A stretch of DNA of 64,000 bases from Morinoia aosen (taxonomy: Eukaryota > Arthropoda > Malacostraca > Amphipoda > Talitridae). Below are positions 19,001-61,302 of this stretch, in pieces. The position numbers and the translations under genes were made by a program. The notes beneath the pieces were generated by a model, which was not told the origin of the DNA, did not search any database, and saw only the letters and a list, made by a program, of their open reading frames with translations. The DNA is taken from NCBI GenBank assembly GCA_030386875.1, contig CM059560.1, forward strand, positions 27,398,183 to 27,462,182. Direction: 5' to 3'. The number at the start of each line of letters is the position of its first letter. The first letter of the stretch is position 1.

Positions 19001-22000
19001 CAGGAAACGACAAAATAACATACGACATGATCAAACACCTAAAACTACCAGCTAAACAATACATCTTGAACACTTTTAACAAATTCTGGACAACGGGCTA
19101 CTTCCCACCACAATGGCAGCACTCGATAATAATACCAATCCCAAAACCCGGGAAAGACCATAGTAAACCAAACAACTACAGACCCATCGCACTCACGAGC
19201 TGTCTGCGCAAATTAATGGAACGAATGATCAATAATCGACTGATCGAATACTTAGATATGCACAATATAATTAGTAAAGAGCAGTGTGGATGCAGAAAGG
19301 GGCGTAGCACTACAGATCATTTGGTCAGACTAGACTCAACCATAAGATTAGCATTCGCAAACAGAGAACACTTCATCTCAGTGTTCTTCGACCTTGAAAA
19401 AGCTTACGACAGAACATGGAGATATGGGATCATACGGGATTTATTCGATATCGGACTCAGGGGCAGATTACCAACTTTTGTCGCCAAATTCCTGGAACGT
19501 AGAACACTAAGTGTCCGAATAGACAACTATAGCTCAAATATTTACGAACAGCGAAACGGAGTCCCTCAAGGCAGTGTCCTCTCGGTCACGTTATTCGCCC
19601 TCAAAATAAACGACATAGCCATGCAGATCCCACCGGACAACAAATTCCACCACTCACTATACGTTGACAACTTACAAGTTGGATACCACCACCAAGACCT
19701 CAAGGTTATCCAAGACAAAATGCAATCCTGTATTAATAAAATATTTAAGTGGTCCCAAAATCATGGCTTCAAATTCTCATCCAGTAAAAGCAAAGCAATA
19801 CATTTCAATACCATACCGGACTCTTCCTCAGCCCAATACTTAAACTCAATGATGAAAACATTCAATACACAAACTCACATAAATTCCTCGGCCTGATTTT
19901 CGATGAAAAATTGAACTGGCAACAACACATCACTGCTTTAAAGAAAAAAGGGAATGATAGCCTGAACTTATTAAAATCAATAACAGCTCAAAGCTGGGGA
20001 GCAGACCAAACCACGATCCTCAAAATCTATCGAAGCATTACAAGATCAATCCTCGATTATGGATCAATAATCTATAACTCTGCCAGCCAAACAACTCTAA
20101 AGCCCATCGAGTCTATTACATCCGAAGCACTACGAATCGCTACAGGAGCATTCAAATCCAGCCCAACAAATAGTCTACACATTATTTGCAATGAAATGCC
20201 TCCCGATCTTAGGCGAAACTATCTATCCCTCTGTTATTACTACAAAATCCGAAGTCAACATGGAAACCCCGCCTTCAATTACACTGTGACGCCGAGTAAC
20301 CGACTACTCTTCCAAAATAGGAAAATAACTCCAACATTCGCTATTAAAATGCAAATACTGATAGAAAAATTTGGCCTCCGGAAAAATCGAGTTAAACCAG
20401 ACTTTTCATACCGACTACTAAACATTACTACTCCCACATGGGCACTAACAAAACCAACAATAAATACCGACCTCACCGAACTACCAAAAAACGAAACCCC
20501 TGAATACATAATCCGTCAAGAGTTTAAAAGAATGACCAAAGAAAAATATGACGGAGATGTAACTATATACACAGACGGCTCAAGAGGAGAAAATGGCACA
20601 GGAGCGGCAGCAGTATGTGGCACCATTGTCCGCTCTGCAACGCTACCGAAAGAGGCCTCAATATACTCAGCCGAAATACACGCCATCCACTTGGCCCTTG
20701 GCATCATTAATGAAAAAAGAGATAAAAAATTCGTAATTTACTGCGACTCCTTGAGTGTCGTTAACAGCCTAAAGTACGAGACATACCATCCAGTACTACG
20801 CCGAATACAACACGACATACACGAAAAACAAAAAAGCGGCAAAGCCATCAACATATGCTGGATCCCCTCCCATGTCGGAATAGGCGATAACGATGCTGCA
20901 GATACTGCAGCCAAGAACGCAACCCAAAAAAACGAAGAATTTATCCTAATTTGCTACAAAGATTGGAAACCATTAATTCGACAAGCCGTGATTAACCAGT
21001 GGAAAACTAGATGGGAAAATTGCAGAGACAAATTAAGGGAAATACAACCATCACCAGGAATAGAGTTGGACTTCGGTAAAATATCACGTAAAGAGGAGAT
21101 AATAGTTAACAGACTCAGAATAGGACATACACTCTTAACACATGGCTACCTGATGAATAATGAAGTACCCGATATCGCACCAGTATGCGAACTTTGCAAT
21201 AACTCAACACTAACAGTCAAACATCTAATCATAGAATGTGAAAGTCTCACCAATAGTAGAAATTGTATAAAGGCTTGCCGAACGCTACAACGACCTACCG
21301 TCGAGACGGTATTGGGACGCCAATTAGACGTTAGAGAATTGATGAACTATCTTCGTGTGATAGACGCTTATGATTTAATTTAAATGTTTTCAGCAACTTT
21401 ATTTGGCAATTGACTTACCTTTAATGATAAACTGTTGAATTGGGCTTTCGGTCACAGACAACATGCGTAGGGGGGAGCAACAAAAGACCCGCATCCGTGC
21501 TTTAATGTTGAATATATCAACACCCCTCATTATTATTATTATTATTTTACACTCAAGAAACTTTCATATGCTAGGAAATGAAGCTTTAACCAGCTTCTTT
21601 ATTATACTACGCTATTGTACTCGTATGTGGGGAATAAAGCATGTCTTACATTCTATTAGCGAATGCGCATGCGTAGTAATTGATGACCTAGTCGCGCTGT
21701 AGGTGAGAGTGGAGAGCTGACTGTCGTCTTCTTACGAGGAATATTTTTGCAGGTGTTGTTCTGGACTATGTGCTGGAGAGCTTACCGCTGCTGCTGCCTC
21801 AGCGGATCAGCAGCGTCGCTTACATCACTGCAGCTTCTGCTATTGTTGGCGTGCTCGCCTACAGGTTAGTCCTTATACTTTGCCTCGTTTTTCGTTCATG
21901 GAAGCCTTTGCCTCGTTTTTCGTTCATGGAAGCCTTTGCCTCGTTTTTCATTCATGGAAGCCTCTGCTTCGTTTTTCGTCCATGTAAGCCTTTGCCTCGT

Positions 22001-36745: not shown

Positions 36746-39719
36746 CTAGTATTCTGATAGGAAGTGAGACTCAAGATGTCTTTTGAATACTTTGTACGAA
36801 TTACATTCACGGATCTCTGCAGGTATAGAGTTCCAAGTTTTGGTTCCAACGAAGAGAATACTGTGTTGCGACCTGGCCTTTGAATAATAAGGAAGCATGA
36901 ATTTACTTCTATTTCGGGTTAAATGGTCGTGATGACCAGTTTGCACAGTCAATAATTGTCTTAGGCTATTGTCGCCATCATTTCTTAATGTTTTGTAAAT
37001 GAAATTACAGATGGAGATTTTGTAGAGATCCGAAAGTTTAAGTATTTGTAAATTTTTGAAAGAATCATTTGTGTGAGCATTATATTCTAGGTTCTTTACC
37101 GCTCTGACAGCCCTTTTCTGCAGAGTAAAAATTTTGTTGGTTTTATTTTTATCAGTTCCGTGCCATGCTTCTATTCCGTATTGCAAGTATGGAGAAATGA
37201 GCGTTTGGTAGAGCATTTGTAAAGCTGTTTCAGGCAGAAAATTTTTAACTTTATTTAGGACTCCGATGGATTTTGATAATTTAGAACAAATATGAGTGAT
37301 GTGCTCTTTGAAGGTCAGATGTTTATCTATTATGATGCCCAGAAACTTACATGAGTTGGTTTCTTCGATTTCACCTTCGCCAATTTTAATGCATGGGAGA
37401 GATACATCTTTCTTGTATGAGAATGTAATATAATTTGTTTTATCGATATTTAGGCTTATTTTATTAGCTTTGAGCCACGATGAAACCTTGTGAAGTTCAG
37501 TATTTATACTCTCCACAATCATAGCAGGATTTTGGTTCGGAAGGACCGCAGAAAGCGTACTGTCATCGGCAAAAAGTATGAATTTGAAGAATGATGTAGA
37601 TTTTACAATATCATTGATAAAAATCAGAAACATGAGAGGCCCAAGAACAGTTCCTTGTGGAACTCCATGGCTAATTGTCTGTGGGTCTGATTTTGCGTCG
37701 TCAATGACAACGTATTGCTTCCGATTTGTTAGGTATGATCTGAACTAATCATGGGAATCCCTCGAATGCCATAACAGTGTAGTTTCGAGAGTAGTATTTT
37801 ATGGTCCACACAATCAAATGCTTTTCGAAAGTCAAGAAATACAGAGAAGACAGGCTTTCCTTCATCTATATTAGAATAGAGGAATTGTAAGTGATTTAAT
37901 ATAGCCTGTGTTGTTGATTTTTAGAGCGAAAACCGTATTGTTTATCGTAAAGAAATGATTTTTGTTCAAAATAAGAGTACACTTTTTTATACACAATCTT
38001 TTCGAATACTTTGCTAATAATTGGTAGAATGGAGATAGGTCGATAATTGTTTACACAGGTTTTTTCACCACTTTTAAAGATAGGGGTTACTCTAGCAACT
38101 TTGAGGGAGTTCGGGAAAGTGCCTAATATCAGTGGGGCTACAATGTCAGCAATAACTTTAAGTACTTTAGTCGGAAACGTTTGTAACCCACTCGATTTAT
38201 TTTTCATGTTGTTTATGCACGTAATTACATCGGAGGAGTTTGTAGGCGTAAAGAAAAAGGAGTTGGGTTCTCGAATATGATCCATAAATTCCAGGTGATC
38301 AGTAGGTTCACTTGGAATACCATCAGCTATGGTTTTCCCTACGTTTACGAAGAAGTTGTTAAAGAGATTAGCAATTTCTTTCTTCTCATGATATTTTACA
38401 TTATCTTGAATAACATGTTCAATTTTCTTTTTATCAGCATTGTTCGGTTTACAGCAAGAGTTAAGGAGATGTCAAGTCTTTTTAACGTCAGTTTTGAATT
38501 GAGTAAACTTGAGCGTAAAGTAGTTCTTTTTTGATGTTCTTATCTGGTTTGTTACATAGTTTCTGAATCGGTTATATGTTTCTCCAGATATTCGTCCTTC
38601 GCAAAGGAGGGCTAGGTACGCTTGACGTTTCTTTATATTTATCACGATGTCTCTAGTAATCCAGGGCTTTTGTTTATTTTTCGGGGTAACTGTACGAGTT
38701 ACAATTGGGCAACACTGATTGTATGCGGTCATTATAGTTTCAGTCAACTTTACTACTGCTTCATCAATGCTCGTAGTATTATTGTTTTGTTGAGAGATGT
38801 GCAATGTAGGCATTGATTCTTCTAGAACTGTGCGCATTTCTTCAAGATTTGATTCGTTTATTTTACGATATGAGTAAGTTTCAGCCCGTGCCTTGGTGCA
38901 AGCAATATAGACATTTTTCTTAATAAGAAAAACTGGGAAGTGATCTGATAAGTCAGAAGTAATTATTCCAGCAAGAAAATCACTAGGGTCTGTCATAAAG
39001 ATATTGTCAAGCAGCGTAGCACACTCTGAGGTTATTCGTGTCGGCTTTGCAATGATCGGAAGGAAGGATTGAGACTGAAAGGTAGTTAGGAAATTAGAGA
39101 TTGGTTCATGGCTTTCATGTTTCAGTAGATCATAATTGAAGTCACCGCATATTATTACGTCATTGTATAAGGGCCTGTTGAACTGAGAAATAATACGATT
39201 CAATTCATTCAGGAAGGATATAGGACAGGCTGTAGGAGGCCTATACACCGTTCCAAGCACAATGCGTTTACCATCTCTAAAAAGTTCTACGAAGAGTGAT
39301 TCTATATGATCCTGATTCATTGTTACACTTGCTATGGTTCTCGAGTCTATGTGGTTAGATATATATGTGCTGATGCCTTCGCCCCGCTGGTTTTTTCTTA
39401 GCGAATGGTAACTATGATAATTTTCAAATCGAATCATGTCTTTAGTCGAGTCATCTAGCCAGCTTTCGGTGAAGCTAATCACGTCTAGGTTATATTCAAG
39501 TTCAGTAATAGTACATTGTATCTCTTCCAATTTTGGATAGAGTGACCTACAGTTCCAACACAGGAGTGAGAAATCTCGGTCAGTTATTCGTATAGTTTTG
39601 TTGAATTTTGATATATTAGTATACCTACACTCTTGAGAGTCGTTTAGGTTTGGATATATTCTGTTCAAATGATTGAAATCTGGATCGATTTCCTCGAATA
39701 TCTCAGGGTGATCAGTCAT
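36746..39719 (-). pseudogene. LINE ORF2 (APE endonuclease and reverse transcriptase), broken
   Basis: The first segment 39719-38472 starts at a good ATG and encodes an APE endonuclease: CWNCRSL, SFTESWL, GTVYRPP, CGDFNYDLL, TLLDNIF, SDHFPVF. The frame is lost near 38470, continues in 38285-37896 with NNYRPISILPI and KQYGFR, is lost again near 37910, and the frame of 37633-36746 resumes with HGVPQGTVLGP and FADDSTL, then the RT thumb region. A TAG near 37745 replaces what is probably Trp in the stretch before LTNRK. Catalytic FADD is intact. At least two frameshifts and one nonsense change make it a pseudogene, though relatively young. Confidence 0.88.
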
Positions 39720-46320: not shown

Positions 46321-46369
46321 ATGAGGCTGATCGCGAGCCTGGCTGCGCTGGCCGCTGTGCCGGCTACTG
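46321..46369 (+). CDS. Channel gene exon 1: signal peptide
   Basis: ATG 46321 encodes MRLIASLAALAAVPAT, a short basic residue then a hydrophobic stretch, ending CTACTG|gtaagt in phase 1. It fits in phase to either candidate exon 2. The link to the exons 5-6 kb downstream is by phase and by the need for a signal peptide, not by direct evidence. Confidence 0.7.
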
Positions 46370-49300
46370 GTAAGTGTCTAGCAATTCTTTTGTTAATAAT
46401 TCCTAATATTGTGCGTGAATGCCATTTTTGTATAATTCATACTTTTTTCTGCTGTTCTTGACCTATTACTTCATTTACTGCGAACGGTCTACGAATGGTT
46501 TTTGATGAATTGAAAAACTTTTTTAGTGATTTCGTAGAAAAAATAAGTTTTCTGACAGCATTCGATCAACTGCCACAATTTTTGGGACCTTCGAAAATGA
46601 GCTGACTCCCGAATCTGACGCCTGAATCTGATCCCAGAGTGGGATGTGTAAAAACTACGTAGTTGAAGAGTGTTTCCAATCCACATAAGCTAGAATAAAT
46701 GCAAAATTGATATAAATGGTTAACAAACAACAAAAAATTTGCCTCTCTTTTTTCGATGGTCTTTTGTACTTAGTGACAATTATGTTATCAAGAACTGATG
46801 AAATAATGTTACGATATTTTTGATCTTCTAAGCCGCCATTTTAAGAGATTTCGATGGCAGTTTCCCAACTTTTGAACTCTGTAGGTTACAAATATTTAAA
46901 TTTTATAGTCTGTAACTCAATAATTCTTGGATATGCGAATGAAAAACTATTAGGGTATTCACCCATCCCGCAGTTTGCGCTTATTTAGCGTCGAATTACC
47001 GTACCTTTTATTTTCTATAATTACTTCTAACACTCAATGATAGTCATGTATCATTATGTTATTATTACTTTTTCTATTTTTCTATCAAATAATTTTTAAT
47101 GTCTGTAGCCATCGTCTACGTAGTTTAAAAAAACGTTAAATAATTCCTAGATGGAACTGTTTGCGCCACACCTGCGGTGACACTCTTGCTTCACGACATA
47201 GAGCACAAGCGCGCAAGTAAAAAACTGCGCCTCGAGTTCTGTGTAGACAGCCCTGTCATTCAAGCAGTACTGATCCCCTTTTACTAATAGGAAGTCGCGA
47301 TTTTTGTAAGTAATGTGAACTGCAGCGTAAGACCTTGCAACATGTTCATGAATGTTGAAAGTACGAAATTAGATCATTCGTATACGCATTTTATTTCATA
47401 CAAAGTATTTCCCGGTTAATTTATTCGAGAGATCATTTAAATCATTTATAAAAAAAAGTTTCTTTGCGCACCGAAGGAATACATTTAGATATTTAATGAA
47501 AATTTCGACAGTGTTCAAAAATTTGCCAAATAATCTTTATGAGTATTTTACTGAAAAGAAATCTTTCACACTTGAATTTCAAATATCAACTCGGGATAAG
47601 AAACACTATATAAGAAGTGTATTTGCGTCTTGCGTTCTAAGTAGCACGGCTGGAAGTGTTGCCTTTGTGGGATATGATGTAAAAACATTTTTCTTTGGCC
47701 ATTAGTTATTAAAATCTTTGGTAAGATTTAACGAGTCTACGTACAAATTTTCATGTCTTTTGCGTGCTTATTTCGTTTAAGATTGCATTAAAACCGCATT
47801 TAAGGATTTTATGAATCAGTCCCACGTTATATTTTAGCTGCTACGCCTTTTCTTAGGTACGAGCCACTTCTATTTATGTACGAGCCACTTTTATTTAGGT
47901 ACGAGCCACTTTTATTTAGGTACGAGCCACGAACCATTTTTATTTAGGTATACGAGCCACTTTTATTTAGGTACGAGCCACTTTTATTTAGGTACGAGCC
48001 ACTTTTATTTAGGTACGAGCCAGTTCTATTTAGGTACGAGCGACTTTTATTTAGGTACGAGCCACTTTGATTTACGTACGAACCCCTTTTATTCAAGTAC
48101 GAACAGTGTTGGGCCCGCAACTTTCAATATGTTGCGGCGCAACCGCATCTGCAACATATTGAAAGTTGCGGGCCCAACACTGTTCGTACTTGAATAAAAG
48201 GGGTTCGTACGTAAATCAAAGTGGCTCGTACCTAAATAAAAGTCGCTCGTACATAAATAAAAGTGGCTCGTACCTAAATAAAAGTGGCTCGTACCTAAAT
48301 AAAAGTGGCTCGTACCTGAAACCTGGCGGCGCAACCGCATCCGCAACACCACTAAAAAAGTTGCGAGGCAACCGCAACAGCAACTTTAAAAAAGCCAAAG
48401 TTGCGATCGCAACCGCAACTCGCAACCGCATCTTTTTACTTATTAAGTATAATTTTAACAAAATATAATTAAATTTATTTTACTTATATATTGCTATGAA
48501 TAAAATAATATTAAAATATTCGAAATAGTGTATTGTTTTACTAAAAAGATCGAGTAAATGTGTGGACTAGAATTTTAATGAAACATCAAGATACTGAAAG
48601 AAACATATCATTTGTAAAAATAGCATGAAAAATAAAATGAATTCTACTTCCTACAATTAGGCTTAAAAGATACCTAGCTTGTAGTTATATTTTCATAAGA
48701 GTTCCGTATATGTATATTGCAAAAAAATTAGAAAGAAATGAACGTTTCGTTTGTAAATATAACATGAACAATTTTCATAAAATGAATTAATTCCATTTTC
48801 TAATAATAATATTGAATAGGTACCCAGCTAGTAGCTATATTTTCATAGGAGCTCCGTATATATAACAAAAAAATATAAAACAGAGAAAGTGCAGAACATT
48901 TGTATTGCCTGTATGACGCATAAAGAAAAACCATGCATATGCTCCTGTAATACATGATAATCCTCTGCTTTTTGTCATTCTTCTCTTATGATTTAATACT
49001 GGTTCATGATCTCAATGTGACAATGTCAACGCTCTGTAATGACGATCAACGTTGCCTCTCAAAAATGATTCAGTCAATCATCAACTTGTTTCAACGAACT
49101 TTTCTTCGTTTTTTCCTAATCACCCGATATCATTACGATGTTGAAGAAGTCATCTTCGTCATCTACGTCCTCGGCACCGCTCCCCTCAGCTGAAATACCA
49201 TTTTCCGATCTGCTATTAAGATGGGCGATTAGTTTTTTGTTATTACCTGCACTTTTTGTAGATCGTTTAGCCATTTTAGCTTAAAATGTGGATGCAGTGA

Positions 49301-52300
49301 GGACGCCAAGATAAAATCGTCGTTATGAAGTACTTTGGCAAATCGCAACATCTAGCTATGTAGATTTGCCGTAGAACGCGTAATTTTACACTTACAACTC
49401 ACATCATTCCTAATAACATATTTTATATAATGAGTTACATTAAATGTATTTATATACTGTAAGAAAAGTGTATGCGTATCACTTTATCGCCTAATGCTGA
49501 TAATAAAAAGTTGCCAGATGGGTTGCACCCTGTACGGTTTAGTTTCAAACGAGAATGAAACGCGTATTGAACTTTATTGAAGTTATTTCAAAAATTAAAT
49601 TGTCATCGGGATGTTGCGGTTGCGAGTTGCGGCCTGACCCGTCGAAAATTGTTGCGATCGCAACAGATTCGGAACTTTCCAAAAATTGTTGCGGCGCAAC
49701 CGCAACCGCAACAGAAAAAGTTGCGATCGCAATTGCGGCCGCAACTTGTTGCGGCGCAACTGCACAACACTGGGTACGAACCACTTTTATTTAGGTACGA
49801 GACATCTTTATTTAGGTATACAAACAAATGGCCAGAGTACACGCCCCTATTCTTCAACTTATTGGCAACTTATAAGGCGTTTCGTACTAATTTATTCGGA
49901 TGGATTGAACAGTATTAATCTACTCTGATCGTCATAAATTCATAGTTGAACCGTTATTGCCAGTGTTAGTCTAAACTACAGTAAACACCTAAAATGTAAA
50001 AAATAAAAGCTCGCGATCTATCAACGAACAGCTAAGCGTGAAGTATAAATGCACTTCAAATAGCAAATATCAAAAGTTACATTTATGAGTCGGACGTTTC
50101 TTTATGGTGATAACACATTTTGCTAAATGAGGTTAATGTTCGCGATCTTTGTGGCTCTGCAATAGTTCATATTTCATTTTAGGTTAAATTTGTCCCAATA
50201 AACGATTCCAGTTCGAATCTATTCTACTTAAGTTCTTCAGGTACATTAAAATTGCGCGAGTTATTGTCAAAGTTGCAAATCTTGTTTTGTTAGGATTTAA
50301 AACTTCTAAATAATGTACAACTCCAACATTGCTGTACCTTATCTGGCATAGGGAGAATTAAGAACAAATTCAGTTACGTGTCCTGAAAGATTCGTGGGCT
50401 CTAGTAATTATTTTACGACCAAGCCTAATTGACTCAGGGAGGGGCAAATTTTCCTTTTGAAATTTCATTAGATTAAATGTCAACACGCACCAATACCAAC
50501 ACGCGTATTCAGTGTGTAAGTATGTCCTCGTACATCATAATTTGCGGGTGCCCAACTCTCAGTGTGAGGAACAAAGGAATATGCAAAGCCATCTATCACA
50601 GCACAGGAACAGAGAGGAACTTCGACATGAAATAGTAGTGAAAATTAAAAGGAGACAAGCGACTGATTCATTATTTTGTTCATTTCTCTTTCATTTAAAG
50701 GTTTTCATTTACGTATACCTCTAGAACAACGAATCGCTGCAAGTATTGGACTGGACCATTCGCAATCCAGGTGTCTCGCAAGATATTCTTCGACGATATT
50801 GAACATCTTGTTCAAAGATTTTCTGCTTTTACCAGAACTGTTTCATGGACAGCATTACAGTTCAAAGCATGAGGGCTTTTACTTGAGTTGATGAATCTAG
50901 AGTTTTCCAGGTGCGAATCATGAAAGCCTCCGCGACTAATTGTAACAAAATACTGGAGCTAATCAGCAAGAAAATCAGTTCACGTGATCGTGAGGCGATC
51001 ATACGAGTATAATGCAGCTAAAATAACTAGCCGTGCACCGGCTTGTTGTTCTAGCGAATTTCGCGAGGTTTTGTAACAGTACAACTCAATTGAAAGCGTC
51101 ACTTTTAAATACATACAATATTTCTAGAGCATGATAACTGCTAAAAAGCAGCAACAGTCTTGGGAATCTTCTTCGTACTGATATCTCACTCAGTATAAGC
51201 TAAATAATGCTTTGAAAAATGTATCACAAACTTAACCTGGACTCACGCGAATGTTTTTTTGTATTCAACATAGTTTGATGTGAAAAAGCATGTCTAGCGA
51301 ATAAAGATTTCGTAAATGCGCAGGTTCCTCTCCAAGTGCTAATTTCTGTCATTTACTCTTCTGTATCTAAATCTCATTCAATGTTTCAGTATTGTCTACG
51401 AATAATTAGCGAGTCAAACTTTACGTAGCTTGAATTTCTACACACTTAATAAAGGACATCATGCATGAGGGTTAACTAGCAATATCGCTTGTGTGTCTAT
51501 CAACGGTGTTAATCAACGTTGTTATTCATAAATTATTTCCATTTAGGTTTTATGAATATTGTTTTGGCCTCGAAACAGCCTCCGCATCTTCGTTCTCCAT
51601 GAGCATCAGCATGAACGGCACCGTGGGGAACTCTTCGTACATCATGGTCGAAAACTTACAAACAGCCCTGAGACCACAGCTAAGAAACGCTTCTCACAAA
51701 CGGTAAATTATCAGCTTATATATTTTTAGAGAAAAATTGTCACAGCGACATCGATCGTTCATTTTACATGTTGTACATATGATGTCGTTCTGATCGAGAC
51801 AAAGACAAGGCTCTGAACTCGATAGTGGACACGGGGAAATTCATTAAATCTTCCATTTCGTGCAGGCTTGCACCTATGCCCTGGTCACGTGAATTGTTTT
51901 ACGAGCATAAATGCATATTGACATCGAGGAGACCTTGAAGACATCATGCCATTGTTTCACTAATACAAAGTACTCTCACATCAGCCCGTAATTTCAGGTC
52001 TGTCACTGAGCAAACCCACTGGATTACCGACGATAATTGTCCAATTGGACGCGACCTTTGCAAATGAATTTCTCTATATGAGTTAACAGCCTTTAAGTTC
52101 GAAACAACTAACTGCATTTCAGGTATTGAAGTTGAACGTTCAATTTAGGCGCTGTTGCGTGAAGGATTTTTGCACCCCCTGTCGAAGGACTGAGCAGCGT
52201 AAGACTAGTAATGGCTTGCTGAGCAGAACCCACCAATTAATTTAGTCGACGACAAGGGCTTTCAAATACGATAAATATATTTCGTAAAGAGTGTGCTCTG

Positions 52301-55300
52301 TCCTTCATTTGTGAGGCTAAAGATAATGAAATGGTAGTGGTAATTCGACTAATTTTGTTAGAAAAACACCGGACTTGTATGAAACACTAGTCGGACTTGT
52401 GAGATTGTTGAAAATGAGAACAGGTCTGCCAAACTCAAATCTTTACTCACTCTGCTGGTATATATAAGCCAGGTGAACCATTATAAGTAAAGAGTAAATG
52501 AGCGAAATTAGCTGAAGTGAGTGAAGGACAGGATCATTGCTCACTGAAACTGAGGATCAGTATATGTGGTACCATAATTATTATTTTGTTTGCAGTCAGT
52601 TTGACTGGAATGCTGTCACTAATCAGTATCGAAGCTTCGGATAGAATACATACTGACACTGACCAGGATCCGACATGCAAGTCGAGTATCAATATAACAC
52701 TCACAGCCAATGGTCAACGGTAAACAATGCTCTATTCACTCGAACGACTGTCCCTTTTATGTATTCAATGTTCGTGTATCACGTCAAACAAGCTTTGAAT
52801 GCGCTTATTAGGGTTTTGTAGAAGCACTTTTACAGTGGGGGCAAAAAAATACAACAAGTTAATTAAATCGCCTGATTCCACCTTTGTAAGCCATGTACAA
52901 TTACGAAAATTGGACTGTGTAGAAAAATTGTATAAAAAGGTTGATTATATGTCCAAAACCAATAAATATTTAATAGAAAAATATACAGGAACAAGTGTAA
53001 TAAATACATGAGCAAATGTTTACAATACCCGACTTTTATCTCAATATTATGTATTAAAGTTATTGCAGGATTATACCAAAATTTTCTGCTACATTTTACT
53101 ATTTTGTGACCAAACTTTCGTCAGCATTCATCTCCAATAACGTGTCATTGGTGAAGCAGCTCTCGTTCTGAAAAGTCGTAAGCATGGGTAAGAATAAGGA
53201 CATCAGGCAAAACCTTTGCGAACGTATTGTGGTGCTCCATAATGAAAGTTAGGGATATCGGAAGATACATATCTGAGTGCAGCGCTGCGTAACATTTTGG
53301 TGGAGCTTTTTGAACTACGGTTAGGTGTGGAAAAAGTCTTGCCAACTGTAATGATAGGTTTTCCTTTTTTTAATTTTTAGTTCCATCCTAGGTTCAAGTT
53401 ATGAAAATTTTTTCTTTTTTATCTCTAACAGAAGAATATGAAAGTCATTTTAGTTAAAAGAGGCGAGTATTTTACGTAATGAAAATAACTATTAAAGCAA
53501 AAATATGATTTCTGTCGTACATTGGACTTAAGGTATGAGAGCTGCAGAGTTTGTGTTTAGTTGGTATTTGCAAAACCCAAGGTATTGAAAATACATTCAT
53601 TAGGGAAGAAAAATTATCCAAATATGAGGATATTTCTCAGAAGTGGAGAGCCAGCGAGAAAATACTAAAGTACTTAGTACGATTACGATTTTAAAATGAA
53701 AAGCTCCCATCTTGAGATAAACTCAAAGAATTTGTTACTCAAAATATCAGCGTCCTGTAACCTCATAGTCATACCTTTCCAATATATGCAAATGCATATC
53801 TACGTATATATTCTGTTAAGCTTTAAAAATTATAATTTTCGTGACAGAAAAAATTCATCAAGCAATGTTCTCTGTTTGGAATGGAAATTGAAGTTTCATA
53901 ACACATTTCAATTTTTCCAGTTAAATACTCGTAGATCTAGGATCTGAGATTGTCAAAGGCGCTCTTTGGGTATATTCTAAATTTCTCTTTCCCCTCCCAG
54001 GCTGCAGGACTTTGGACTGAGCAGACTCAAGACCGGCGAGGTGGCCATGCAGCACTTCCTCCTGTGCGTCTGGTTCTGGCTGCGCTTCTTCACCAAGTCT
54101 GCGTCTCCGCTCTCCTACGCCATCTCCAACACGGAGTCCAACACCATTCTTTTAGGTGACATGTTATTCCCGCCGCTTGAATTTGTAACAAGCAGTCCAA
54201 CACCTTTCTTTTAGGTGACATGCCCTGTTGTTTCCACCACTTGGATTCGTAACAAGCAGTCCAACACCTTTCTTTTAGGTGACATGCCCTGTTGTTTCCA
54301 TCACTTGGATTTGAAATAAGGAATCTAACACCATTCATTTAGGTGATAAGCCTGGTTATTTTTAGAGCTTGCATTTGCACAAATTTTCTGAGTACTCTAC
54401 GTTGATGATTACCTACGTTTGGCAGATTTCCAAATAGCTTCATCCATTATTTTCCATTTTGTCTCTCGCAATAATCCTTCAAGGAGATCACAGATCCTGT
54501 TCTACAAACTATAATAAATCCATGAATAAGGCCCAGGAATTGCTTAACACGTTAACTGCGATGGGTTAAACTGAAGTTCAATATTCAATTCAAATTTACG
54601 GTGAATTGTGGATATCAATTTTAAAAATAGCAAACATTAACTGGATCGGGCCTTTATTTAGCTTACATTAAGTATTAATAAAAAATGAGTTAGATGACTG
54701 CAGGTGGGTCAGCAGCATTATGAAAATCATCTAAGTGACCACCGGTGGGTCCTTTCGCAGGAAATGTGTTAAAGAATATTACAAATCCTCACAAAACTTT
54801 CTCGATTTCAATTGCAAATGAGGACAAGAACTACGTTAAAGGGAAATTAAGTCGAAATACAGTTTCCTTCGCTCAATTAATGAAAAATCATCGGGGAAAA
54901 GTGTGACTTAAATTTGGTGAACGTTGTTTGAACGTAGAAGCTGAACAATTATAATGGAAAGGGGTTATTATTTTCGTGAAATAAGTATAGTTCGATCTCA
55001 CAAAAACTAAAATTACTTTATATGTAAAAAGAAGTAAGTATTTCATTGTACAATCTTGCTGATGAGCGACGAATCACCATAGGAGAAAAAATCTTTGTTA
55101 CACTAGCTTAGAGCAAAGTGCTCTTAGCAGCTAATATATTCGATCTAACGTTTGTAGGTGTGGAAGGAGCAGGACTTTTTTTCGTCTTTCAAGGACGGGA
55201 AGTGCGCGTGAAGAAGTCGATGGAGCCAGCTCGTTGGTACCACATCTGTCTGCATCAGCAAGCCAAGTTCTTCAGCGTGGTGCTCGATGGTGAGACAGTG

Positions 55301-58300
55301 CACACCATCAATGTGCACATGCCGTCTTTCATCCCGCTCAACGGTACTCTTATCCTCGGTCAAGATCAAGATGATCTAGGAGGAGACTTCAATCCTCTTC
55401 AGGCTTTCGTTGGGAAAATCTACGGCCTGAACATTTGGACGTCTAAAGATATTATTCCCCAGAAAGTAATGAGTAAGTGTTTCAACGACTCTGTACATGA
55501 TGAGGCAGTCATTAAGTACGAAAATATAACGTTCCAAAGACGAGGAGACATTACTAAAGATGATGATATCCCTTGCTCGGCAAAAAATGAACCTGTCTAT
55601 GTAATTTGGCCGGTGAGGATGTCATACGACGACTCGGTCTTTTTGTGCAACTTGTTGAGCTTATCTGTTCCTAGAGTAACCGGGAAAGATGACTACCGTA
55701 TGCTCGTGGAAATGATAGATAAAGCATCCGGCATGTGCTTTGGCTTTCTGTCTACCGTGAAGTACGCTTGGATATCCAATACCGTCTTAGATAATGATGA
55801 AAACGCGGGAGAAGAAGACGTATCAGGTTCAGCAAACCGCGTTTTTGAATTACATAAATTCAGCGAAGGCGAAAACGTTTCAGTCAGTCAAGTTATGATA
55901 ATTTCATCCGGCAAGTACATGAGTGCAAGCGAGGGTGACAAAGCCTGCGCCATCTGTGGAGGTGATGCTTTTTCAACTTTATATTTTTTGAGAGGCATCT
56001 GCCCAAACCTTCAGACGGTAATGTTTTACGCAAGAAAGAAAGACATTAATGTATACTTCCATGGCAACCTTGACCTTGTGATTGAGCAAGAAGAACAAGT
56101 TTGGGAAATAAAAACAACTTCCAATATGCGTATTGCTCTTCTGGAGAAAGCTGACACTCCTTTCGGAAAACACACATGGGCTGTGTTTGGTACATTGAGC
56201 AACTGTCTCTATCAGTCTCACACTTCACAATGGAACATGTTCAACCCACATAAATCTATGAAGTTGATGTTCAGCGTCTGTGATTACAGCGAATTTGCGT
56301 GCAACGATGGTTCATGTTTGCCCAGCTCTGCGAGATGCTCTCAGATCAAGGAGTGTTCGGACGGTTCGGATGAGGATGGATGCGATTTCATCAGAACACC
56401 CAATGGATACTCGCAAAACACTGCCCCGCCTCAAGCGTCATTGGTCCTCAATGTGTCGTTTTCGCTATCGCAGGTAAGTGACTAGGTCATTGTCTCAGCT
56501 GAACCACACATCTTACATCAAGTTGAAAAAAAACAAGCGCTCTCCAACGTTCGAGTGAAGTTTATTTCAGAAATTTTCTTACTACTGACAAGTGGGATAT
56601 TTCGATGATTACTTACTCAGGGTAGGATGAATTTCTACGACGAGATTCGAGTTTAGTCAACAAAACAGGCGTCTCCTTACATTACGAGAGTGTCCGTCCT
56701 CACATAGCGTGATTCACCAAATATTTATTGTGATTGCTGAGCTGAGGAACTTCACTCCATTCATTATGGACGTCTTCTTTATCTTCCTTCAGTTGATCAT
56801 TTGCAGTTTACAGGACTAATTACACTTGGATCGGCAAACGTTTATATGTCCGTTAGAGAAAAGGCTGAAAATTAGACAGACGTTTAGCATAAGTTAACTT
56901 ATTTAAACAGTACGTTTGTAGATAGAATGTAGCAGAATGAGTTTCATTAAACCTTTTATCAGGTTTTAAGAGCCGAAGATGAAAGCGTAATTTGTTAAAT
57001 ATTTTCATCGTAACAAGTTGTCCGTGTGAATGCAAATTTAGAGCACAAAATGAGATAGCGCTTCCGTTCTAACCTCATGCAATGTCTTGGCCTTACACAG
57101 TTGTCAACCCGATATAAATGTCAGTATAGACTACTGAGTAGTAATGTAAAAATTATTCTCGTTAGTCTAGAGCTAGAATGATATTTAAAATTAAAAGAGA
57201 GTCTGAAACGCATTGAAAAACGTCTAAAATCCCCACGATAGACATTATGGGTACAATAGTCTGAGTTTGAAATTTAATAATATACCCCAAATCTTCATTT
57301 TTGCGCTACCGTTAGGGAACATTCCCGACTTACAAATGGAAGATCATCCTCTAATCGAGTTTAGCTTTAATGATAAATTATCACGTACAACTACACCCAT
57401 CCGTTTAATATTCCCCTGAATTTCTTCATGAACGTTGGACTATTTTCAATTTTTTCAATTAAACGTATACGTCTGCCTCAGGACGGTCATAATTCCATTT
57501 CTTTCGAGTTGAATGTACTTCAGTATGTGCGTGCGAGCGTAATTTTGTGCCTTTGTTCCCAGGTTACCTCGATCAACATAGTGAAGCAGTTGGCGCGCAT
57601 GGTCATGAAGATGGTCATCCGCTGGCGGGACACGCGTCTCGAATTCCTCAACGTGAACCACGACCCCCTCGACAACCTGGTCACCAACGCCACCAATCGT
57701 ATCTGGCTTCCAATAGTGCAGGTAACGAAAACTGAATTGCTTAGGCATTCTGATACTGAAAAATGATTAGTAATGGAAGTTTCATTGATTTAGGATTAAC
57801 CAAAAAACTATTGGCAGGTGAACAATGAGGATCGACTAGAAGGAACGGTTCCCCCAAGAGAAGCTCTTCATCTAATTGCTGATGGCAAACCTACTTTTGA
57901 CGGCGAAGGTATGGTTCGCATGTGTTCTATCGCTTCTAAAAGGTGTCTTGAATTTAGTCGCTTTCATTGTGCAAAGTATTTATGTATGAATTATATGTAT
58001 CCATATTATTGAAGTTTCCCTGAAATGTTCATTGAGGTAACTTCAACTACACCTTTTTCACTTCAAATTAAGCTAAGTCAAGTTCAATTTAATCCAAGTC
58101 AAGTTCAAATTAATCTAAGTCAAGTTCAATTTAATCCAAGTCAAGTTCAAATTAATCCAAGTCAAGTTCAAATTAATCCGAGTCAAGTTCAAATTAATCC
58201 AAGTCAAGTTCAAATTAATCCGAGTCAAGTTCAAATTAATCCAAGTCAAGTTCAAATCAATCCAAGTCAAATTCAAATTAATCAAACCCTCAGTTGGGTT

Positions 58301-61300
58301 AAAAAATGACATAATAGTTTGTTAATTTGAGTTTTTTTGTGTTAAATATGTATCTATTGGATGTGATAAGCAAGATTGGTTTCGAGGACTTATTACACTC
58401 ATAGGTATTTATATACGTGAAATTCCACTTTATCACATATATGAAATCATATACTCGTACATGCAAATACAAAAGGTTATCATTGAACGATATGTACATT
58501 TTTTCTTTAAAAGAAATATACAAATGCGATTCAATGAACGATTCCGTTTGATTACAATTATTTATACTTGTACATTACTACCCAGATACATTCTTGCATT
58601 AGCAATAAAAATTTTGCCCTCCATTCTAATTCCGTGTTAGTCATTGTGAAGAAATGTAGGATCCTCTTACAATACACAATAATAATACAAGAAACAATGT
58701 TTCTTACTTAATACTGATTTTTTTTTGTGTGTGTTCACATTTCAATGGATAATACTTTCAAGACTTAAATATTGATAAAATGATAACTATAAAAGTTATT
58801 GAAGTTTTAAAAGTATTATATATTGAATTGTAAATAAATATTGAATTGATTAAATTTACATATCGTCCAATAATAATATTTTGTACTTGCATGTATTTGA
58901 TTTCATATATGCGGTGAAGTGGAATTCCACGTATAAAATACCTATGAGTGAAAATAAATCCTCGAAACCAATCTTGCTTATCACATCCAATAGATACACA
59001 TTTAATACAAAAAACTCAAATTAACAAATTATTATGTCATTTTTTAACTCACCTGAGGGTTGGATTAATTTGAACTTGACTTGGATTAAATTGAACTTGA
59101 CTTGGATTAAATTGAACTTGACTTGGATTAATTTGAACTTGACTTGGATTAAATTGAACTTGACTTGGATTAATTTGAACTTGACTTGGATTAATTTGAA
59201 CTTGACTTGGATTAATTTGAACTTGACTTGGATTAATTTGAACTTGACTTGGATCAAATTGAACTTGACTTGGATTAATTTGAACTTGACTCGGATTAAT
59301 TTGAACTTGACTTGGATTAATTTGAACTTGACTCGGATTAATTTGAACTTGACTTGGATTAATTTGAACTTGACTTGGATTAATTTGAACATTAATTTGA
59401 ACTTGACTTGGATTAATTTGAACTTGACTTGGATTAATTTGAACTTGACTTGGATTAATTTGAACTTGACTTGGATTAAATTGAACTTGACTTGGATTAA
59501 TTTGAACTTGACTCGGATTAATTTGAACTTGACTTGGATTAAATTGAACTTGACTTGGATTAATTTGAACTTGACTCGGATTAATTTGAAATTGGCTTGA
59601 ATTAATTTGAACTTGAATTGGATTAATTTGAACTTGACTCGGATTAATTTGCACTTGACTTGGATTAAATTGAACTTGACTTGGATGAATTTGAACTTGA
59701 CTCGGATTAATTTGAAATTGACTTGGATTAACTTGAACTTGACTTGGATTAATTTGAACTTGACTTGGATTAATTTGAACTTGACTTGGATTAATTTGAA
59801 CTTGACTTGGATTAATTTGAACTTGACTTGGATTAATTTGAACTTGACTCGGATTAAATTGAACTTGACTTGGATTAATTTGAACTTGACTTGGATTAAT
59901 TTGAACTTGACTCGGATTAATTTGAAATTGACTTGGATTAATTTGAACTTGACTCGGATTAATTTGAACTTGACTTGGATTAAATTGAACTTGACTTGGA
60001 TTAATTTGAACTTGACTCGGATTAATTTGAAAGTGGCTTGGATTGATTTGAACTTGACTTGGATTAATTTGAACTTGACTCGGATTAATTTGAACTTGAC
60101 TTGGATTAAATTGAACTTGACTTGGATTAATTTGAACTTGACTCGGATTAATTTGAAATTGACTTGGATTAATTTGAACTTGACTTGGATTAATTTGAAC
60201 TTGACTTGGATTAATTTGAACTTGACTTGGATTAATTTGAACTTGACTTGGATTAATTTAAACTTGACTCGGATTAAATTGAACTTGACTTGGATTAATA
60301 TGAACTTGACTTGGATTAAATTGAACTTGACTTGGATTAATTTGAACTTGACTCGGTTTAATTTGAAATTGACTCGGATTAATTTGAACTTGACTTGGAT
60401 TAAATTGAACTTGGCTTAGATTAATTTGAAGTGAAAAAGGTTTAGTAAGAGTAATGATTGAGGTCGACCATAAGAGGGAAAATTTTTGGGTAAGCAATAA
60501 TTGAAAATTTGTGAGTTGCCATGCATTTGAAGAGCTAATCGAAGCGACATCCTCCGGCTGATGAATTGTTTAAGTAAATTCTTTTGTTACAGAAAACGTG
60601 TTCCGTGGATCGGATGTTGTTATTTCCTACACGCTTGACCTATCGAACAACATCAACTGCTTCTTCAGGTTCCACTTCTATCCCTTCGACACACAACGAT
60701 GCAACGTAGAGTTTTCTATAGTGAATGCGCCTAATATACCTTTGAATCCGACGTTAGAAGAGAGCTTAGGCGATGAGGTAGAAGAACAACTACCCTCCGA
60801 ATACGTCATGGCTGGAAGTTCTATCTCGTTTGAAAATAAGACCCTTGTCTATTCTTTCAGGATGTCCAGGAACATACATTATCCTGTATTTTCGATTTAC
60901 TTCCCTACTGCATTGATGCACTTCATCAGCTATGGAACTCTTTGGATTCCAGTGATGGATTTCCCCGACCGTGGCACGATGAGCCTGACAACATTGCTGG
61001 TGCTGATCGCCCTCTACAGCGACATATTGAGTCAGTTGCCCGTCACGTCGTATCTCAAATTCCTCGATCTATGGTTCATTTTTAGTATTACATTCATTTC
61101 CGTGATAATCTTCGTTCACCTCATAACAAGCAACACAGGAAAAGTTGAAAAAATTGGCCGCCGACATCATGGGATATGCAAGAGCTTTCATTTGAATAAC
61201 TCTACCATCCTCAACCAATGCCGAGTTTGGATGGGAGTCGGCTACTTATTTTTCCATTTAGTTTACTGGAGCTACCTCTTGTATCATCTCGACAAACAGT

Positions 61301-61302
61301 AA
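46321..61302 (+). CDS. Chimeric Cys-loop ligand-gated ion channel with pentraxin, lectin-like and LDLa modules (867 aa)
   Basis: Exons 46321-46369, then 52596-52719 (or 51579-51702), 54001-54155, 55158-56473, 57563-57721, 57818-57908, 60593-61302; all GT/AG, total 2604 nt, one frame. Approximate residues: signal peptide 1-20; pentraxin domain 70-225 with the Ca-site-like LGQDQDDLGGDF; Cys-rich lectin-like region 230-480; LDL-receptor class A 484-518 (FACNDGSCLP...CSDGSDEDGC); ligand-binding domain 535-725 with WRDTRLEF and the loop C-x13-C containing YPFD (654-668); M1 near 728, M2 near 760, M3 near 785, M4 near 845. It should be a pentameric surface channel whose ectodomain carries carbohydrate- or lipoprotein-binding-type modules. 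The ligand cannot be told; the M2 TT/L9' pattern is that of Gly/GABA/GluCl-type subunits. I recall similar predicted proteins in arthropods but no functional description. Confidence 0.88.
47857..48316. repeat. 21-bp minisatellite arrays in opposite orientations around a perfect palindrome
   Basis: Unit GTACGAGCCACTTTTATTTA + G, direct from 47857 to about 48103 and reverse-complemented from 48183 to about 48316. The centre, 48034-48135 and 48151-48252, forms a perfect inverted repeat with 102-base arms and a 15-base spacer. Related units reappear at about 49773-49815. Confidence 0.9.
48104..49772. mobile_element. hAT-like non-autonomous element, about 1.67 kb
   Basis: The left tip CAGTGTTGGGCCCGCAAC and the reverse complement of the right tip CAGTGTTGTGCAGTTGCG share CAGTGTTG, a hAT-type terminus. 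Both ends are built of GC-rich TTGCGATCGCAA / TTGCGGTTGCGG motifs (48330-48432 and 49603-49772), while the interior is AT-rich without transposase. The flanks AGTACGAA and GGTACGAA agree at 7 of 8 bases, but they lie in the 21-bp array, so this is weak evidence for a target duplication. Confidence 0.55.
51579..51702 (+). CDS. Channel gene alternative exon 2a
   Basis: Acceptor ggcctcgaaacag|CC, donor AAACG|gtaaat; 124 nt, phases 1 to 2. It encodes SASSFSMSISMNGTVGNSS, a short spacer and QLRNASHKR, with three N-glycosylation sequons (NGT, NSS, NAS). The upstream acceptor at 51546 would give the wrong phase with exon 1. It has the same length and phases as exon 2b, so only one can be used. Confidence 0.6.
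52596..52719 (+). CDS. Channel gene alternative exon 2b
   Basis: Acceptor ttttgtttgcag|TC, donor CAACG|gtaaac; 124 nt, phases 1 to 2. It encodes VSLTGMLSLISIEASDRI, an acidic stretch with one Cys, and INITLTANGQR with one sequon (NIT). Joined to exon 1 it lengthens the hydrophobic signal region. Confidence 0.65.
54001..54155 (+). CDS. Channel gene exon 3: start of pentraxin domain
   Basis: Acceptor tttcccctcccag|GC, donor CTTTTAG|gtgaca, phases 2 to 1. It encodes LQDFGLSRLKTGEVAMQHF then CVWFWLRFFTKSASPLSYA and SNTESNTILL; the C-x-W-x-R-F start and SYA.S strand are typical of pentraxin/LamG-like folds. The donor is repeated downstream (see 54137-54350). Confidence 0.88.
54137..54350 (+). repeat. 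Four tandem copies of the channel exon 3 tail and its 5' splice site
   Basis: The unit AGTCCAACACC.TTCTTTTAG|GTGACATG plus about 35 bases recurs with donors at 54155, 54214 and 54278 and a fourth degenerate copy near 54342. Spacing is 59-64 bases, so later donors change the frame; reading through the first donor reaches TAG at the second copy. Copies 2 and 3 are nearly identical, implying recent amplification. Confidence 0.88.
54548..54768. mobile_element. TTAA-flanked MITE (piggyBac-like), 221 bp
   Basis: TTAA at 54544-54547 and 54769-54772. The left end CACGTTAACTGCGATGGG and the reverse complement of the right end CACATTTCCTGCGAAAGG form an imperfect inverted repeat. It is non-coding and lies in the intron between channel exons 3 and 4. 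Confidence 0.62.
55158..56473 (+). CDS. Channel gene exon 4: pentraxin, lectin-like region, LDLa, start of ligand-binding domain
   Basis: Acceptor acgtttgtag|GT, donor ATCGCAG|gtaagt, 1316 nt, phases 1 to 0. Pentraxin core: GVEGAGLFFVFQGRE, RWYHICLHQQ, LILGQDQDDLGGDF and AFVGKIYGLNIW. Then a region starting VYVIWPVRMSYDDSVFLCN, whose spacing recalls a C-type-lectin fold, with a later Cys-rich part and the strand KHTWAVFG. Then LDLa CDYSEFACNDGSCLPSS...DGSDEDGC with all six Cys and the acidic Ca-binding SDE. It ends SLVLNVSFSLSQ, the first strand of the channel domain. That all these lie on one exon rules out a mis-joined model for the LDLa-channel fusion. Confidence 0.95.
57563..57721 (+). 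CDS. Channel gene exon 5: ligand-binding domain strands
   Basis: Acceptor tttgttcccag|GT, donor GTGCAG|gtaacg, phases 0 to 0. It encodes VTSINIVKQLARMVMKMVIR, WRDTRLEFLNVN and NRIWLPIVQ. The first two correspond to the xWxDxRLxF strand and the last to the loop-A W.P region of Cys-loop receptors. Confidence 0.92.
57818..57908 (+). CDS. Channel gene exon 6: ligand-binding domain
   Basis: Acceptor ctattggcag|GT, donor GGCGAAG|gtatgg, phases 0 to 1. It encodes VNNEDRLEGTVPPREALHLI then ADGKPTFDGE. It follows directly from the loop-A segment. Confidence 0.88.
58052..60440. mobile_element. Foldback-type element with inverted 21-bp satellite arrays
   Basis: The outer ends are inverted repeats: CCTTTTTCACTTCAAATTAA at the left, matched by TTAATTTGAAGTGAAAAAGG at the right. 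Inside each end is an array of the unit TTGAACTTGACTTGGATTAA + T: about 11 copies at the left (58075-58290), about 65 at the right (59050-60425), in opposite orientation. Internal to these are further inverted arms, about 58295-58490 and 58865-59045, highly similar, e.g. CTATTGGATGTGATAAGCAA. The centre is unique and AT-rich. No transposase. It occupies the intron between channel exons 6 and 7. Confidence 0.85.
60593..61302 (+). CDS. Channel gene terminal exon: Cys-loop, M1-M4
   Basis: Acceptor ttttgttacag|AA, stop TAA 61300-61302. Cys-loop CFFRFHFYPFDTQRC has exactly 13 residues between cysteines. Pre-M1/M1: VFSIYFPTALMHFISYG then TLWIP. M1-M2 linker and M2: DFPDRGTMSLTTLLVLIALY; M3: FIFSITFISVIIFVHLI; a short loop of about 32 residues with a sequon (NNST); M4: WMGVGYLFFHLVYWSYLLY. 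All of the membrane domain is in one exon without introns. Confidence 0.96.

Follow-up and report, generated by a model that had tools for sequence, protein, structure and literature searches.

The window analysed here, a stretch of 64,000 nucleotides from the talitrid amphipod Morinoia aosen (contig CM059560.1, positions 27,398,183 to 27,462,182), carries on its plus strand a gene for a chimeric Cys-loop channel. In its predicted product a pentraxin domain, a degenerate C-type lectin-like domain (CTLD), an unnamed module (here called LRG) and an LDLa module precede the ligand-binding domain (LBD). A chimeric channel with pentraxin, lectin-like and LDLa modules had been proposed in the initial annotation. 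The proposal was borne out by an exon chain that stays open, by the Pfam domains of the 867-residue translation and by nine database proteins with the same order, and we regard the architecture (pentraxin, lectin and LDLa modules on a Cys-loop channel) as practically certain.

Structure of the gene

The gene model is a chain of seven exons, open throughout, in which all six introns have GT-AG boundaries. Exons 3-7 are backed by tblastn with P0001, a protein of the talitrid amphipod Trinorchestia longiramus. The exons of the model, together with one alternative exon, are as follows.

46321..46369, plus strand: exon 1, start codon and hydrophobic N-terminus (putative signal peptide); uncertain; open, with a GT donor
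51579..51702, plus strand: exon 2 of the 867-residue model; uncertain; 124 nucleotides, phase 1 to 2
52596..52719, plus strand: alternative exon 2b; 124 nucleotides, equal to exon 2 in length and phase
54001..54155, plus strand: exon 3, N-terminal part of the pentraxin; tblastn of P0001, 87% over 53 residues
55158..56473, plus strand: exon 4, most of the pentraxin, the degenerate lectin, LRG, LDLa and the start of the LBD (residues 110-548); tblastn of P0001, 74% over 458 residues
57563..57721, plus strand: exon 5, LBD; chain open, tblastn
57818..57908, plus strand: exon 6, LBD; chain open, tblastn
60593..61302, plus strand: exon 7, Cys-loop, M1-M4 and stop codon; tblastn of P0001, 90% over 230 residues

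The LDLa module and the first residues of the channel lie together on exon 4, the Pfam match of the LBD beginning at residue 526, which supports the argument of the annotation that the fusion is real and not an artefact of the gene model.

The N-terminus encoded by exon 1 reaches a best 10-residue hydropathy of 2.45. Exons 1 and 2 were not matched in tblastn by any of the ten relatives that served as queries, and they are without homology support because P0001 (marked partial) begins at exon 3. For exon 2, an acceptor at 51547 was ruled out by stops in frame, and the acceptor at 51579 was taken. The resulting exon lies under the site thresholds of the splice scan. For the interval from exon 1 to exon 3 that scan lists four compatible pairs of splice sites; three of them tie for the best score, one being exon 2b and the other two falling in a tandem repeat. 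The codon score is 11.9 for exon 2 versus 2.8 for exon 2b, against a null maximum of 7.7 in 131 open frames; exon 2 thus exceeds all 131 null frames and exon 2b is exceeded by four of them. As a guide the score is weak, for exon 4 comes out at -37.9 if it is excluded from the training set. The two exons may be mutually exclusive alternatives that change the N-terminus. The pentraxin match is independent of the choice between them.

Several tandem repeats accompany these exons. A 64-base repeat (54128-54346, 3.5 copies) runs across the end of exon 3, whose donor recurs downstream, and the open frame of exon 3 stops at 54214, at the next copy of the donor. Intron 1 contains two 21-base arrays in opposite orientation (47853-48102 and 48184-48317). 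Two further 21-base arrays in opposite orientation occupy parts of intron 6 (58062-58283, about 11 copies; 59060-60430, about 66 copies), and these could fold into a very large hairpin.

No second copy of the gene was detected in the window by tblastn of both strands (E<=1e-3) with 10 of the 13 proteins described below as queries (P0005, P0006 and P0013 were left out). Only the places of exons 3-7 were matched, some alignments extending slightly into the introns of that region.

Relatives and conservation

Protein searches, in each of which about 8000 candidates were scored, yielded 13 proteins. The module order of the window protein, sought among them, was found in nine proteins from eight crustacean species, which carry pentraxin, LDLa and LBD by their database Pfam labels: P0001 and P0011 (both Trinorchestia longiramus), P0002 (Petrolisthes manimaculis), P0003 (P. 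cinctipes), P0004 (Panulirus ornatus), P0007 (Oratosquilla oratoria), P0008 (Macrobrachium nipponense), P0009 (Penaeus vannamei) and P0010 (Palaemon carinicauda). In the databases they are called “uncharacterized protein” or “hypothetical protein”, or are named after the LDLa or pentraxin part alone. Six of the eight species were checked and belong to Amphipoda, Decapoda and Stomatopoda, all Malacostraca; the remaining two we take to be decapods. Members are known from shrimps, lobsters, porcelain crabs, mantis shrimps and amphipods. Another protein, P0012, is a partial environmental member of 549 residues, which runs from a partial pentraxin (22.2 bits, cut-off 25) through lectin and LDLa to the binding domain on a contig of 1880 bases. 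The remaining three, P0005 and P0006 (pika neuronal pentraxin receptors) and P0013, have no channel label.

The family alignment of nine rows was built from the window protein and eight of the nine members, P0003 being left out because it closely duplicates P0002, has no lectin and carries an unrelated-looking terminal extension. The window protein and its orthologue P0001 share 82% identity over 94% of the length of the former. By region, identity is highest in LDLa (91%), the binding domain (90.5%) and the membrane part (90.4%); the pentraxin has 83%, the stretch of 18 residues that leads up to the binding domain 78%, LRG 75% and the lectin 66%. With about 90% in both channel domains against 66% in the lectin, the channel looks constrained.

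In a maximum-likelihood tree of ten sequences (the window protein and the nine members), P0011 groups with Penaeus and Palaemon (support 100/99), and the stomatopod Oratosquilla with Macrobrachium (100/100). The tree program warned of a long branch and an unsure place for P0011, and the joining of the window pair with Petrolisthes is perhaps a long-branch effect. Since such groupings cross the orders, duplications within the family may predate the split of the lineages leading to Amphipoda, Decapoda and Stomatopoda. Judged from these comparisons, the proteins form an uncharacterised predicted channel family of Malacostraca, neither a one-off nor a model error, which is old within the group and has a conserved ectodomain.

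The extracellular modules

Within the window protein the modules and the landmarks of the channel are placed as follows.

54035..55555, plus strand: pentraxin domain, split by intron 3 (residues 70-242; PF00354)
55556..55978, plus strand: degenerate C-type lectin-like region (about residues 243-383; located by hhalign to the CTLD profile of the relatives)
55979..56278, plus strand: unnamed LRG module (about residues 384-483, 100 residues, between lectin and LDLa)
56279..56383, plus strand: LDLa module (residues 484-518, six cysteines; PF00057)
56399..56473, plus strand: start of the LBD on exon 4 (P524, Y527 and P533 invariant in nine of nine members)
60658..60702, plus strand: Cys-loop, C654-C668, with 13 residues between the cysteines and a YPFD core
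60961..61041, plus strand: M2 pore helix and its edge, with D at -1', R at 0', T at 6' and L at 9'

The pentraxin is matched by Pfam Pentaxin (PF00354) with 71.2 bits (cut-off 25; 1.2e-19), and its nearest solved structures are neuronal pentraxin-2 (8.8e-14) and neuronal pentraxin-1 (1.2e-13). The GQ[DE]xD loop is present in all nine aligned members. The cysteine pair C80 and C140 is present in the window protein, C140 alone being invariant across the nine rows. Pentraxins have a signature motif of the HxCxSWxS type, which is not found in the window protein, where the sequence reads HICLHQQ. The domain thus resembles neuronal pentraxins, SAP and CRP in its Pfam match and in its sequence matches to neuronal pentraxin-2 and -1, SAP and CRP, but differs from them in being set in a multi-pass channel and in retaining its calcium site only in part.

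The term “lectin-like”, given to the next region by the initial annotation, probably holds by descent, although the amphipod sequence is degenerate. A CTLD profile of the relatives aligns with the window protein and P0001 (hhalign E 1.9e-4, 66 columns, probability 48%), and in the relatives the domain is a genuine C-type lectin: its seven-sequence profile matches tetranectin (5.9e-19) and mannose-binding protein (2e-14). In the 867-residue window protein, however, Pfam finds no lectin domain. The Pfam family Lectin_C is present in six of nine aligned members; those without it are the window protein, P0001 and P0002, as deduced by elimination with precomputed database labels. Two lectin cysteines (the second disulphide pair) are absent from the window protein and P0001 and kept in 8 of 10 rows. 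The window protein has no QPD or EPN sugar motif, QPD being found inside the CTLD of P0004, P0009 and P0010. On these alignments, the middle region is probably a C-type lectin by descent that is degenerate in the window gene.

The LRG module that follows has no Pfam match in the window protein and no PDB sequence match at E<=1; seven of its columns (G, G, W, P, G, W, C) are invariant in all ten aligned members. LDLa is recognized with 31.1 bits (PF00057, cut-off 24.1; 2.7e-7). Its six cysteines are found in nine of nine members, and the window protein has them together with an SDE motif. The aspartate after the fourth cysteine is present in six of nine members and is serine in the window protein. 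A lone LDLa module does not imply lipoprotein binding. Given the lost cysteine pair, the missing QPD or EPN motif and this replacement of aspartate by serine, glycan binding through the lectin appears doubtful in the amphipod gene, and the pentraxin would be the better candidate for such binding.

The channel part

The LBD is matched by Neur_chan_LBD (PF02931) with 51.8 bits (cut-off 26; 9.2e-14), and Y527 and P533 line up with the start of glycine receptors. Pentraxin, LDLa, LBD and the membrane part were matched in all nine alignment rows (E<=0.1), and the family profile aligns to the glycine receptor through M4. Profile matches include glycine receptor alpha-3 (2.2e-41), GABA-A beta-1 (1.8e-39) and GluCl (8.9e-39); among the best 60 of 118 and the best 60 of 73 matches, those listed are glycine, GABA-A, GluCl and related receptors. 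Two NCBIfam models score far below their cut-offs in the window protein (TIGR00860, 70.2 bits against 280.2; NF033918, 15.4 against 500).

The residues C, P, D and C of the Cys-loop are present in nine of nine members, as are the arginine before M1 and R0', T6' and L9' of M2, the reference being glycine receptor alpha-3. The M3-M4 loop of the window protein is short. The PAR motif of anion channels at the cytoplasmic end of M2 is found in none of the nine members, the window protein having P-D-R. Position -1' of M2 reads D, D, E, V, L, L, V, V, V across the nine, so that an acid occurs in three (the window protein, P0001 and P0002). The sections of Tasneem et al. (PMC549065) on this edge give E-[RK] for cation channels and A-[RK] for anion channels. 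The D-R of the window protein would be closer to the edge of cation channels, and the members with V-R or L-R match neither. The acid at -1' would make a cation flux possible for the window subunit.

The site at which transmitters bind is altered. In the column of glycine-receptor F159, the loop-B residue, the nine members have V, V, S, A, T, S, S, S and V, and the aromatic is therefore absent from all of them. The loop-D arginine occurs in one of nine; loop C, which aligns with gaps, permits no conclusion. The protein is thus like GABA-A, glycine and GluCl Cys-loop channels in its binding domain, Cys-loop, membrane region and R0', T6' and L9', and differs from them in some 500 extra N-terminal residues and in the lack of PAR and of the loop-B aromatic.

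Other features of the window

Upstream of the gene, the plus strand carries exons of a protein O-mannosyltransferase-like gene (2563-11818), recognized by MIR (7.7e-6 at 2563-2829) and PMT_4TMC (8.5e-9 at 11411-11818). There are also non-LTR-type retrotransposons at 14996-21383 on the plus strand (reverse transcriptase, 1.2e-31; RNase H, 7.1e-14) and at 36746-39719 on the minus strand (reverse transcriptase, 9.7e-14; endonuclease, 7.2e-9).

Discussion

The initial annotation held that pentameric ligand-gated ion channels (pLGICs) normally carry nothing but a signal peptide ahead of the LBD. This agrees with the published passages considered here as far as animal members are concerned, but several bacterial ones are credited there with N-terminal domains. 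One such passage (PMC9897478, 2022) attributes an N-terminal domain to several prokaryotic pLGICs and states that none had been observed in any eukaryotic homologue; another, in PMC4795631, describes the association of pLGICs with other domains as evidenced at the genome level only. The bacterial channel DeCLIC and others resemble the amphipod protein in having, according to excerpts of PMC9897478, PMC12664993 and PMC549065, extra extracellular domains ahead of the canonical LBD; they differ from it in the nature of these domains, which are described there as the beta-rich NTD1 and NTD2 (N-terminal domains 1 and 2) in DeCLIC and as PBP-I, Cache or MCP-N in others. In DeCLIC the N-terminal domain influences gating kinetics, as stated in part of PMC9897478. 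The likeness to DeCLIC is one of arrangement only, and the bacterial and crustacean extensions are probably of independent origin.

A search of titles and beginnings of abstracts in open-licence PMC gave, among the matches listed, no description of the present fusion. According to the abstracts concerned, crustacean immune proteins, among them shrimp C-type lectins, include C-type lectin modules as well as LDLa modules. The two also occur together in one protein (LdlrCTL), which is not known to have a channel part.

We propose that the product of the gene is one subunit of a pentameric Cys-loop channel, the outer face of which would be lengthened by the pentraxin, the degenerate CTLD, LRG and LDLa. 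The ectodomain would most likely bind an extracellular, probably polymeric or surface-bound partner, for which a glycan, a phospholipid head group, the matrix or a protein of another cell are candidates. Binding of the partner would then modulate or trigger gating through the stack of LDLa and binding domain, an arrangement that would resemble DeCLIC, whose N-terminal domain affects gating. We favour this mechanism because the module order is fixed across orders, the gating core is intact and the transmitter site is lost, and we give it a probability of roughly 0.5; expression, assembly as a pentamer, the partner and its effect on gating are what we infer. The initial annotation had suggested, likewise as a conjecture, that recognition of glycans, microbes or lipoproteins might be coupled to ion flux.

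Several observations weigh against our proposal. In the amphipod gene the sites of lectin and LDLa show partial degradation, and the calcium-site residues of the pentraxin are only partly kept. The membrane domain of the window protein falls just short of recognition by Neur_chan_memb (PF02932, residues 733-809; 28.0 bits against a cut-off of 28.1), the Pfam match is also below cut-off in P0007 and P0009, and only four of the nine database proteins (P0001, P0004, P0008 and P0010) carry the corresponding label. M1 and M4 of the window protein are of modest hydropathy (1.16 and 1.31). The missing loop-B aromatic would be equally consistent with a partner subunit that binds no agonist.

The strongest competing explanation, which we consider a serious though less probable one, is that the ectodomain is a device for tethering or clustering. 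An ordinary small ligand, or else partner subunits, would then open the channel, and recognition would give no gating signal. Neuronal pentraxins cluster AMPA receptors, and the solved pentraxins nearest to the amphipod domain are precisely neuronal pentraxin-2 and -1; the better conservation of the channel than of the lectin between orthologues and the partial degradation of the recognition motifs point the same way. However, with the loop-B aromatic in none of the nine members and the loop-D arginine in one, an amino-acid transmitter is unlikely to bind homomers of the family, and several modules in a fixed order presumably exceed what a tether needs. It is improbable, to our minds, that the protein is a non-conducting or accessory member, i.e. 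a pattern receptor of the cell surface whose channel half is an anchor or co-assembles silently with other Cys-loop subunits. The unusual M2 edge without PAR, the short M3-M4 loop and the degenerate binding site would suit such a role, but the gating and pore residues tested are invariant in nine of nine members, and a membrane part 90.4% identical to that of the orthologue goes beyond the needs of an anchor.

The remaining alternatives concern the gene itself. Fusion by the gene model of a secreted pentraxin-lectin-LDLa gene with an adjacent channel gene might be suspected from the unsupported exons 1 and 2 and from P0003, a model with a foreign-looking terminal extension and without the lectin. 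We find this very improbable, since exon 4 holds both LDLa and the start of the LBD, the same order recurs in the family, and P0012 passes from pentraxin to binding domain on a single contig. Chance or model fusion was rejected in view of the orthologue, the shared exon 4 and the family members. Least credible of all is a gene decaying in the amphipod lineage: lectin cysteines and one LDLa aspartate have indeed been lost, but there is no stop or frameshift, the orthologue P0001 has identical losses, and channel and LDLa are about 90% identical between the two.

If recognition does act on gating, a more specific form of the mechanism can be imagined. Classical pentraxins are five-membered rings and Cys-loop channels are pentameric, and a five-fold crown is therefore conceivable. 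Five fused subunits might set a crown of pentraxins on the pore, which would open or close on binding to a patterned surface; we advance this tentatively and think it somewhat unlikely. The targets of the crown could be microbial, egg, food or conspecific glycans or lipids. Were it true, Malacostraca would possess a family of pattern-recognition receptors whose direct output is an ion current, and eukaryotic pLGICs would include members with accessory N-terminal domains.

To conclude, the family contradicts, at the level of sequence, the absence of N-terminal domains from eukaryotic pLGICs as it is worded in the passage of PMC9897478. The nine named database proteins provide material with which to ask whether an animal Cys-loop channel is gated by a recognition module and not by a transmitter. 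Through such channels, immunity, adhesion or chemosensation in crustaceans could be linked to membrane potential.

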